Positions 7,559 to 9,912 of a stretch of DNA of 64,000 nucleotides are shown here, in pieces. The stretch is from NCBI RefSeq assembly GCF_011006175.1, contig NZ_CP048795.1, positions 930,001 through 994,000 on the forward strand. Direction: 5' to 3'. A model generated the notes under the pieces. It was not told the DNA's origin. It saw nothing but the letters and a program-made list of their open reading frames with translations, and searched no databases. The stretch is from Hydrogenobacter sp. T-8 (lineage in GTDB: Bacteria > Aquificota > Aquificia > Aquificales > Aquificaceae). Position numbers and translations under genes: made by a program. The first letter of the stretch is position 1. Each line of letters starts with the position of its first letter.

Positions 7559-8224
7559 TTAGACCCCCCTTATAAGGTATTGCCTAAGTATTTCAAGAGC
7601 CCACTGGGTAGCTATGAAACGGTTCTCATTCCTGCTACCCTCAAAGAGAAACCTTCTAACAACCACTTCCCTGTCTGTTGCGAGGGCTATGTAGGTAAGC
7701 CCCACAGGTTTTTGGTCTGTCCCTCCTTCTGGTCCGGATATACCCGTTATGGCAAGTGCTATGTCCGCATCCGTTTCCTCAAGAGCACCCACCGCCATCT
7801 GTCTGCAAACCTCTTCAGAAACCGCACCGTGTCTTCTTATAGAGCTTTCTTCAACCCCGAGCAGTTTTGTCTTGATCTCGTTGGCATAGACCACAAAGCC
7901 ACCTACGAAGTAGTGAGAAGAACCTGGAACATTTACGATCCTTGCGGAAAGTAGACCACCTGTACAACTTTCCGCAATGGCTAGCTTTAAGCCTTTTTCT
8001 CTTAAAAGGACTCCTACAATCTCCTCCATACTCTTCCTTCCAATTGCGTAGACAAAGTCTCCATACCTTTCCATAAAGACCTTTAGCTCTTCCTCATCCT
8101 TGATAAGAAAGTCAACACCGCCAACCCATTTCCTGCTTTTATAGCCCTCAATAACATCTAATCCTATAGTCCTGACTAAAAAACCTTCAAACTCAATAGG
8201 ATCCTCACATACACCCACCATCAT
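7559..8224 (-). CDS. CinA/PncC-type amidase with a short N-terminal extension
   Basis: The C-terminal domain (about residues 66-221) is a nicotinamide-nucleotide amidase of the CinA C-terminal family, which would convert NMN to NaMN in pyridine nucleotide recycling. Signatures are LAIAESCTGGLLSARI, VPGSSHYFVGG and ALAITGISGPEGGT. The first 65 residues resemble the middle (KH-like) part of full-length CinA, but the N-terminal molybdopterin-binding-type domain is missing. The start overlaps the preceding gene by 4 bp (ATGA), so it is translated with the molybdopterin-oxidoreductase-like protein. The amidase call is firm; the role of the extension is not. Confidence 0.88.
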   Translation of the reverse strand: MMVGVCEDPIEFEGFLVRTIGLDVIEGYKSRKWVGGVDFLIKDEEELKVFMERYGDFVYAIGRKSMEEIVGVLLREKGLKLAIAESCTGGLLSARIVNVPGSSHYFVGGFVVYANEIKTKLLGVEESSIRRHGAVSEEVCRQMAVGALEETDADIALAITGISGPEGGTDQKPVGLTYIALATDREVVVRRFLFEGSRNENRFIATQWALEILRQYLIRGV

Positions 8225-9789
8225 AGGAAGACCTCATACCTGTGATAGGGATTTTTTAGGAAAGCTCCAACTCTATGCCCTGGGTCAAAGGGTTGAAATT
8301 CTTCATACTCTGAGGGTATAAAGATAACGCCCTCTGCTATATTTTCTGTGGTGATTAAGTCAAAACTTATACCTCCTATCTGTATGCTATCCTTTAGTCC
8401 GATCCTTCTTGCAGTGTGCGTGTTTATATAAGCCCTTTGAAACCTTTCCATCTCATGAGTCCAAGGGTTCCAATGTCCCAAGTCCTCCACAAGGGTGCTG
8501 TCTGTGTAGAGGAAAAGCTCCCCCTTTCGTGTGTAGTAATCACCTGAAAACCCCTTCGAACCAATGTCTTCCATCCTAAGCTCTACCTCACCCTTTGTTT
8601 CTAAATCTTCATAGTATTCAAAGTCTTTTAGGCTTACCCTTAGCCCAAGAGCTTTTCCAAGCACGTCCGCAGGACTATAAACATCTTGCGCATCTACCGT
8701 CTTTGGTGAATATACAAGATAGCCAAAGCCATGCCTGTAGTTTATAAAGTCTCGCTCTTGATACATGCTCAAGGCAAAAAGCATGTCCGAATAATGGGCT
8801 GTAATGTTTGGGAAAACCTGAAAGCTAACCACAAACTTATCCTTAAGGGCTTTTAGATGGTCTTCCCTTAGATATCTAAAGTGGTTTCCTACCACCACAA
8901 GGTTATCAAACTCCTCAAACCTTTCAAAAAACTCCTCCATAGGCTTGGCAGGGAAAGGCATAAGGTCTCCCACAAAGCTGTAGTTGACACCAAACTTCTT
9001 TCTAAGCCCAGCAAGAATAGAAAGTATAGCTTCTCTAAAGGGAGAGTTCAAAAGGTGTGCCCCCACAAGGACAAGGGCACCTCTCATGAGAAACAGGCTT
9101 CTTTTAACAAACTCCACCTTGCTATCACCCTTTTCAGGCTTAAGAATAGCCTGCAAAAACTCTATAATAGAATCTGGCTTTAATAGCAGTCTATCCTTTG
9201 CCTTGGCACAGGTGGTTTCATACCTGCTGGAGAGACAAAAGAGGTATGCACCCGCTTCTATGGCATCTACCACCCACCGCGTTGCCATAACCTCAGAAAA
9301 AACTGGCTCCGCATCAACGGAGAGTATGAACTTTGCCCTTTTCCAATCAGTGGGCTTAAGACTTGAAGGCATAAACTCTACAATGGGGGCATCAACAAAA
9401 ACATCCTCTGAGAGGCTTCTGGCAAGGAGATAATCCTCAAGTCCTGCCTGCCTACCAAGCAAAAAGGCGGTCTTGCCCTTTGATAGTTTTCCCTTCAGGA
9501 TTTCAAGAGCTTGAGCGTAATCAACAGAAATAAACTCATCTCCCTTCCTCATAAAAATACCTTTTAGTCTCATAGGATTGGTTGTCGCTTCCTGTATATA
9601 GGCTATACCTTTGGTGCATAGACTTCCCATCCCCCTTGGGTCTGCAGGGTGTCCGTATAAGTCTACTATCTTACCTTCCTTTTGGTAAAGGATATATCCG
9701 CAGGCACATCCACAACCTGCACAAAAACCTACCTTTTGGCTGTCAAACTCCTTCACCGTGAGAGGTATTTTTGTGGGCTCAAGGCTCAT
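8221..9789 (-). CDS. Short molybdopterin-oxidoreductase-like Fe-S protein
   Basis: A 522-residue member of the molybdopterin oxidoreductase superfamily, much smaller than formate dehydrogenases or DMSO reductases (700-1000). The N-terminal [4Fe-4S] motif is intact: Cys23, Cys26, Cys30 and Cys58. A C-terminal molydop-binding-like domain is recognisable (RAYINTHTARRIGLKDSIQI). In the central part I see no Cys or selenocysteine at the place where the metal ligand normally sits (around residue 130), so metal binding is doubtful, as in NuoG-type relatives. No signal peptide and no partner electron-transfer subunits nearby. It is coupled to the CinA-like gene. Substrate unknown. Confidence 0.75.
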   Translation of the reverse strand: MSLEPTKIPLTVKEFDSQKVGFCAGCGCACGYILYQKEGKIVDLYGHPADPRGMGSLCTKGIAYIQEATTNPMRLKGIFMRKGDEFISVDYAQALEILKGKLSKGKTAFLLGRQAGLEDYLLARSLSEDVFVDAPIVEFMPSSLKPTDWKRAKFILSVDAEPVFSEVMATRWVVDAIEAGAYLFCLSSRYETTCAKAKDRLLLKPDSIIEFLQAILKPEKGDSKVEFVKRSLFLMRGALVLVGAHLLNSPFREAILSILAGLRKKFGVNYSFVGDLMPFPAKPMEEFFERFEEFDNLVVVGNHFRYLREDHLKALKDKFVVSFQVFPNITAHYSDMLFALSMYQERDFINYRHGFGYLVYSPKTVDAQDVYSPADVLGKALGLRVSLKDFEYYEDLETKGEVELRMEDIGSKGFSGDYYTRKGELFLYTDSTLVEDLGHWNPWTHEMERFQRAYINTHTARRIGLKDSIQIGGISFDLITTENIAEGVIFIPSEYEEFQPFDPGHRVGAFLKNPYHRYEVFL

Positions 9790-9856
9790 TGAGTAGAAGA
9801 TTATACGACAATTTTTTTACGGATTTATCTTGTGGGTTTTCTGATAGTTAATTATT

Positions 9857-9881
9857 GTTTGACATTATTATAGTATCAAAC
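9857..9881. repeat. Inverted repeat upstream of the abrB-type gene (possible operator)
   Basis: GTTTGA (9857-9862) and TCAAAC (9876-9881) form a 6-bp inverted repeat with a 13-nt spacer, ending 3 nt before the -35 box. TTGACATT also occurs twice, at 9859 and 9885. An autoregulatory site is possible; this is inference. Confidence 0.4.
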
Positions 9882-9884
9882 TAC

Positions 9885-9912
9885 TTGACATTTTCCAAAA
9901 TAGGTATATAAT
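9885..9912 (+). promoter_or_regulatory. Perfect-consensus sigma-70 promoter of the abrB-flgD-flgE operon
   Basis: TTGACA (9885-9890), 16 nt, TATAAT (9907-9912). The -10 ends 7 nt before the ATG at 9920, so the transcript would begin at or next to the start codon. Confidence 0.75.

Follow-up and report, generated by a model that had tools for sequence, protein, structure and literature searches.

A MopB-fold protein of the Aquificaceae predicted to lack the molybdenum/tungsten ligand loop and to retain one iron-sulfur cluster site

What could a protein with the fold of a molybdopterin oxidoreductase do once the loop that carries the metal ligand is gone? The question is raised by P0001, a MopB-fold protein of 522 amino acids encoded in a 64,000-nucleotide stretch of the 1.8-Mb genome of Hydrogenobacter sp. 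T-8 (contig NZ_CP048795.1, positions 930,001 to 994,000; this whole stretch is referred to here as the window). An earlier, sequence-only reading of the window had placed the gene and given its length correctly, leaving its orientation unstated (Table 1). The answer favored here, with a probability of about 0.58, is that P0001 lacks the molybdenum/tungsten (Mo/W)-bis-pterin site and may act in trans as a one-cluster electron-transfer or scaffold protein, by analogy with inactive relatives.

The evidence that carries this answer concerns the metal ligand. A joint alignment was made of 14 family members and 17 other proteins (FdhF, six formate dehydrogenase [FDH]-like and one FDH/NuoG-like protein of Aquificota, eight nitrate-reductase-like proteins, and NapA). 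Its ligand column (FdhF Sec140, together with H141) is a gap in all 14 family members and holds Cys in 16 of the 17 enzymes, the remaining one being FdhF with its Sec; a profile alignment to Escherichia coli FdhF likewise puts Sec140 inside a 13-residue gap. Neither a Cys nor an in-frame TGA lies near residue 130 of P0001, in agreement with the sequence-only reading, which had found no Cys/Sec ligand candidate there. Segment 124-149 spans 24-26 residues in 50 orthologs, and no Cys, Ser, or Asp within it is invariant; the most frequent residues of these kinds are D133 (41/50), S142 (38/50), and Thr or Ser at 143 (45/50), and one ortholog has a Cys at position 139. According to the same reading, a Ser or Asp placed at the metal would speak against it; the alignments give no sign of one, as the loop is missing and neither residue is invariant. 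The alignments thus firmly indicate that the loop was deleted rather than substituted. At FdhF R333 the two alignments disagree (a 50-column gap in the profile alignment; Val, Thr, or Ile in the joint alignment), and the firm statement is therefore limited to the loss of the ligand loop.

The rest of the predicted pocket is altered as well. N176 and H181 of FdhF, each constant in 17/17 enzymes, are both replaced by Glu or Asp in 14/14 family members; P182 (17/17) is replaced by an invariant V167, D202 (16/17) by Ser or Gly in all 14, and Q335 (17/17) by Asn, Asp, or His. We take N176, H181, D202, and Q335 to be cofactor-contact positions; a literature search on the cofactor residues of FdhF gave nothing. 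Judged by sequence, P0001 would therefore lack both marks of a Mo/W-bis-molybdopterin guanine dinucleotide catalytic subunit, the metal ligand and the constant contact positions. In place of the enzymes' N-P-x3-H-P the family has a motif of its own, with Glu or Asp at positions 161 (E39/D11) and 166 (E42/D8) in the 50 orthologs, and two further family-specific motifs lie in domain IV and at the C-terminus (Table 1). Residues found in 50/50 orthologs are G61, R74, V167, M168, R171, D175, K196, Y270, G274, E345, E497, Q499, and P500.

Such conservation invites the alternative that P0001 is an enzyme or sensor that reuses the emptied pocket for a different metal, a small molecule, or a nucleotide, the conserved His, Glu, and Gln together with the Glu/Asp positions forming a new site. 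The family-specific residues that lie opposite the cofactor region in the alignments (E/D161, E/D166, V167-M168-R171-D175, H439, H445, E448, Q451, E497, and Q499) speak for it, but the same residues could just as well fill the cavity as salt bridges; this alternative is doubtful.

The iron-sulfur cluster site, in contrast to the ligand loop, is kept. The sequence-only reading had called the N-terminal Fe-S motif intact, and it is: C23-x2-C26-x3-C30...C58-x-K60-G61 matches Pfam Molybdop_Fe4S4 (PF04879) with 28.7 bits, above the cut-off of 22.7, and none of its four Cys varies in the 47-row ortholog alignment, each being present in at least 95% of 50 rows. Residue 60 is Lys in 48 of the 50 orthologs and Arg in two. 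The joint alignment shows the four cluster Cys and the equivalents of FdhF K44, R61, and E450 retained in the family. The fold-closing Arg/Glu pair, described as conserved across the superfamily for NarG R108-E794 and NuoG E615 (PMC5123574), has its counterparts in R74, whose context matches the N-R-L-K-like context of NarG R108, and in E345; the local hhalign profile alignments to single E. coli sequences that locate the pair score weakly (E 0.006 for NuoG and 0.042 for NarG), their point being the positions.

Table 1. Features of the P0001 gene and its surroundings (window coordinates; residues are those of P0001).
Feature	Residues	Position	Strand	Basis
P0001 gene, MopB-fold protein without Mo/W ligand loop (522 aa)	1-522	8221..9789	minus	Open reading frame (ORF), Pfam, model
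C-x2-C-x3-C of the [4Fe-4S] site	23-30	9700..9723	minus	Invariant Cys in 47 rows; PF04879
Fourth Cys and K60-G61	58-61	9607..9618	minus	C58, G61 invariant in 47 rows
R74, equivalent of NarG R108 (closing salt bridge)	74	9568..9570	minus	Arg in 50/50 orthologs and 17/17 enzymes
Deletion site of the enzymes' Cys/Sec-bearing loop	131-143	9361..9399	minus	Two alignments and 50 orthologs
E-P-V-F-S-E-V-M-x2-R-x3-D-A, replacing N-P-x3-H-P of the enzymes	161-176	9262..9309	minus	50 orthologs and joint alignment
E345, equivalent of NarG E794 and NuoG E615	345	8755..8757	minus	Local profile alignment; Glu in 50/50
GHWxxWTHxxExxQ, family-specific domain IV motif	438-451	8437..8478	minus	H439 46/50; H445, E448, Q451 48/50
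ExQPF, family-specific C-terminal motif	497-501	8287..8301	minus	E497, Q499, P500 50/50
Promoter-like site upstream of P0001 gene		9851..9879	minus	Consensus match only, 10/12
PncC/CinA-domain gene directly downstream, 4-base overlap		7559..8224	minus	ORF, Pfam

The predicted structure shows what surrounds these sites. An AlphaFold2 model built from 47 alignment rows has a full MopB fold (predicted local distance difference test [pLDDT] 93.5, predicted template-modeling score 0.92), and an ortholog of 27-28% identity, L038, is predicted to have the same fold (pLDDT 83.4), its model being poor in the first 9 and most of the last 30 residues, the C-terminal motif included. P0001 thus combines the fold of the MopB/dimethyl sulfoxide (DMSO) reductase superfamily with an N-terminal Fe4S4 domain. 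Foldseek matches of the model are NapA, FDHs, and the complex I subunit NuoG. VIA-align gives Z scores of 28.5 for NuoG/NDUFS1-type chains (419 residues), 27.7 for FDH (497), and 27.3 for NapA (499), differences below 1 being treated as ties. The superposition on FDH and NuoG that the sequence-only reading had proposed as a check succeeds, for the model, with both. Some 20 residues precede the Fe4S4 motif; no twin-arginine export signal is apparent by eye at the N-terminus of the protein, which is probably cytoplasmic.

The gene is neither a chance ORF nor a relic. A profile of 47 orthologs, run on 136 Aquificota genomes at E <= 1e-18, finds it in 61 of 64 Aquificaceae genomes, across 11/11 genera, and in 0/72 other Aquificota; carriage by 61 of the 64 argues against chance. 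The three Aquificaceae misses (G041, G047, and G022) are 90%, 65%, and 86% complete, and some genomes hold the gene only as pieces at contig ends. The named relatives are Aquificaceae or Aquificota metagenome-assembled genomes, and a pattern-based scan, the sole test that reached beyond Aquificota, returned four loci, all of them Aquificota. The gene is maintained under purifying selection and is not decaying: nonsynonymous over synonymous substitution rates are 0.076/0.557 and 0.085/0.864 against the two nearest orthologs and 0.041/0.337 between those two, ratios of about 0.10-0.14 for the three pairs.

Gene neighborhoods were compared at 37 loci from 37 genomes. In the window, the PncC/CinA-domain gene (its product carrying about 50-60 N-terminal residues ahead of its family matches) is followed by lpxA- and glmU-like genes, and it is probably co-translated with the P0001 gene; flagellar genes and, by eye, AbrB-like genes are the other neighbors. 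The region between the P0001 gene and the flagellar operon (9851-9912) contains divergent promoter-like sites, that on the plus strand matching the sigma-70 consensus at 12/12 positions. A PncC/CinA-domain gene lies downstream in 16 of the 37 loci, with the 4-base overlap in 11 of these 16, and is followed by lpxA-like genes. Upstream, a FabI-like gene occurs in 17/37 loci and phosphoglycerate kinase (PGK) in 3/37, all of genus g2; one locus shows neither pattern. Pfam confirmed one representative each of the FabI, HPF, PPDK, aldolase, PGK, DegT, and CofH-like neighbors. An OrfB_IS605/TnpB-like ORF stands directly upstream of the ortholog in locus L034 (6728-7978).

A redox partner was sought among 484 neighboring ORFs with ferredoxin-type Cys motifs and six redox queries, a screen that does not extend to flavoproteins. 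Within that scope no constant redox neighbor emerged, and no kind of redox gene recurs in more than two of the 37 loci, which bears out the earlier remark that partner subunits are lacking. Redox-looking genes occur in five loci. In L052 (6689-8617) a 642-residue NuoG-like ORF, the only one in the 37 loci, lies directly downstream of the ortholog in convergent orientation; in L076 FDH genes adjoin the ortholog divergently; L045 has a small ferredoxin-like protein at a greater distance; and L035 and L046 share one common Fe-S protein cluster several kilobases away. No NuoE, NuoF, NuoCD, or NuoG-like ORF was found in the 36 loci other than L052.

As far as sequence can tell, P0001 resembles NuoG both in its losses and in its retained features: a MopB domain without cofactor, an N7-type cluster motif, and the Arg/Glu pair. 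It differs in that the N-terminal [2Fe-2S]/NADH-G domains of NuoG are missing and the NuoG model TIGR01973 gives no match at E 0.01 (one of five orthologs scores 15.4 bits vs. a cut-off of 470); the profile match to Aquificaceae NuoG is weak (68%, with the C-terminal part absent) vs. 98-99.5%, nearly full length, for FDH. The Hydrogenobacter genome encodes six further Fe4S4-domain proteins, including a separate NuoG, the only protein there with PF10588. A separate NuoG-like gene is present in 11/11 genomes checked, all below the curated TIGR01973 cut-off. The notion that P0001 is a split-off C-terminal half of NuoG was tried and ruled out, both by the Fe4S4-like part that NuoG of the same genome has for itself and by those 11 genomes. 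In the genome of P0001 the nuoG gene is itself split by the contig seam (C1:1-521 and about C1:1804455-1805817; loci L069 and L068) and would appear as two partial genes in an annotation of the linear record. Two other relatives may be recorded here: an FDH-like gene of the same genome (L071 5864-8968, at C1:1205 kb) has one in-frame TGA, as several relatives do, and is probably a selenoprotein gene; a 950-residue protein of another genome (L120; G029 C1:1529010-1531109) matches the NuoG model, and both trees place it with the formate dehydrogenases.

P0001 might also belong to complex I as an accessory or a duplicate, in the form of a second NuoG-like MopB domain that is detached and docks onto this respiratory enzyme. 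This is improbable. The highest structural Z belongs to NuoG/NDUFS1 chains, but within about 1 of FDH and NapA. The 14 family rows form one clade (support 100), the sister group of which shifts with the rows included; one tree joins the family to Aquificaceae NuoG with a Shimodaira-Hasegawa-like approximate likelihood ratio of 90, but the join is flagged for long branches and the family stands alone once the Aquificaceae NuoG rows are left out. The adjoining NuoG-like ORF of L052 favors a complex I part, but Nuo matches are absent from the other 36 loci, every genome checked has its own NuoG-like gene, and the sequence similarity leans to FDH. For the sequence-only reading, which had suggested an electron-transfer or structural relative like the NuoG branch, the first half stands by analogy, given the FS0/N7-type motif and Arg/Glu pair that are kept and the ligand and contact positions that are gone; membership in the NuoG branch does not, in view of the missing N-terminal part, the separate NuoG-like gene, the best profile match to FDH, and the unstable trees. 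Its other suggestion, a new reduced enzyme class, found no positive evidence.

Four points weigh against a one-cluster protein without a pterin site that acts in trans. First, 56 of the 64 Aquificaceae genomes have a MoaA that passes its cut-off, so nearly all carriers have molybdopterin at hand. Co-occurrence of the gene with the cofactor pathway, examined as a sign of cofactor independence, gives a mixed picture. The eight genomes without such a MoaA (G004; G020, which has a partial one; G027; G032; G049; G055; G056; and G059) all carry the P0001 gene, whole or in pieces, and among these eight plus G057 and G030 MoaC is found in six and MoeA in seven. The near-complete G027, G032, and G056 have MoaC, MoeA, and other PF00384 proteins, so their missing MoaA would seem to reflect a gap in the assembly. 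G055 (87% complete) has the P0001 gene and no MoaA above cut-off, MoaC, MoeA, or PF00384 match; G049 and G059 lack MoaC and MoeA, and G004 lacks MoaC; G004, G049, G055, and G059 are only 69-89% complete. Second, the nucleotide-binding region partly survives (N302 at FdhF D404, H439-W440 at FdhF H585-Y586, and R189 at FdhF R204), which would permit pterin or nucleotide binding. Third, with no partner found, the choice between electron transfer and scaffold is a guess. Fourth, the adjoining nuoG of L052 slightly lowers the favored reading and slightly raises that of a NuoG partner.

The first two points bear on whether P0001 might still be a true Mo/W enzyme with an unusual or absent protein ligand. 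Its complete MopB fold, with the C-terminal domain present, and the above-cut-off MoaA of its own genome suit such an enzyme, as does ortholog L038, which passes the Pfam Molydop_binding cut-off (36.3 vs. 26.8 bits), but the ligand loop is deleted and contact positions constant in 17 enzymes have become acids, which makes it very improbable. P0001 itself falls below the cut-offs of Pfam Molybdopterin and Molydop_binding, and no NCBIfam model comes near its cut-off, the best scoring 42 bits vs. 1400. Least probable of all is a service to other molybdoenzymes, in maturation or storage, as a cofactor carrier or decoy: of 10 Aquificaceae genomes examined with PF00384, 9 have at least one other MopB protein, but the contact positions are lost and no Mo-cofactor genes were recognized among the recurring neighbor clusters, which were not searched gene by gene.

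The favored reading, a one-cluster electron-transfer or scaffold protein, can be put as a mechanism. P0001 would have lost the Mo/W-bis-pterin site and kept an FS0-type [4Fe-4S] site; it would bind no molybdopterin, would hold one [4Fe-4S] cluster, and, acting in trans, may transfer electrons or give structural support as a subunit of some redox assembly within the core autotrophic metabolism of Aquificaceae. The most attractive candidate place is the reduction of ferredoxin for CO2 fixation: which enzyme supplies electrons to the low-potential ferredoxins of this pathway in Aquifex is described as unresolved (PMC10052474). A bolder version is rather doubtful. In it the Mo/W cofactor would have been lost independently within the MopB superfamily, in an event not described before, leaving a one-cluster protein that stands alone and on which all Aquificaceae depend, either as the missing subunit of a ferredoxin-reducing route or with a new ligand in the pocket. 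No description of the family was found in the open-access literature searched, and the Pfam-derived name 'molybdopterin oxidoreductase' would mislead.

Among known systems, formate dehydrogenase is closest by sequence. FdhF/TIGR01591 is the best profile match of P0001, nearly full length, and shares the Fe4S4 motif, the Lys after the fourth Cys, the Arg/Glu pair, and the MopB fold; P0001 differs in having no Cys/Sec ligand, in its changed contact positions, and in falling short of the model and FdhF by about 150-190 residues, and it scores 29.4 bits against TIGR01591 (formate dehydrogenase alpha), below the curated cut-off of 666.25. Relatives without cofactor are described in several systems: Nqo3/NuoG, ActB, and FhcB (PMC10100899) and QrcB (PMC6303296) as MopB members, and ElpA of the methanogen Elp-Hdr complex as a relative of the FDH alpha subunit in an electron-transfer arm (PMC12350162). 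These proteins and StnC relay electrons or hold complexes together. To Nqo3/NuoG the likeness lies in fold, cluster motif, and Arg/Glu pair; P0001 has none of its N-terminal Fe-S modules and adjoins nuoG in 1/37 loci, convergently. The model matches ElpA (8rvu_D) with Z 25.5 over 324 of 339 residues, but ElpA is a truncated FdhA without the molybdopterin-binding (MopB) domain, and its alignment ends at residue 383 of P0001, whereas that of FDH runs to residue 522 and P0001 keeps the C-terminal domain. In StnC an FdhF-like domain of some 490 residues is catalytically inactive, and the Stn tetramer is described to form through contacts of this part (PMC10482914). In StnC/NfnC this domain is fused to GltD and NuoG modules, whereas P0001 is free-standing.

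QrcB, ActB, and FhcB differ in being known as subunits of multi-protein complexes; P0001 scores 30.9 bits against the QrcB model NF041783, below the curated cut-off of 440, and gives no match at E 0.01 to FhcB/FwdB TIGR03129 (one of five orthologs has 16.8 bits vs. 327.8). The described molybdopterin-free MopB proteins (NuoG, ActB, QrcB, FhcB, ElpA, and StnC) all sit in defined complexes, whereas P0001 has no constant redox neighbor; its conservation across a whole family of deep-branching hot-spring autotrophs points to an assembly with further parts still to be found. P0001 is most likely an analog of the inactive MopB subunits NuoG, StnC, and ElpA, sharing the complete set of defining features with none of them, and its role would parallel that of the inactive MopB domains in complex I, StnABC, and Elp-Hdr.
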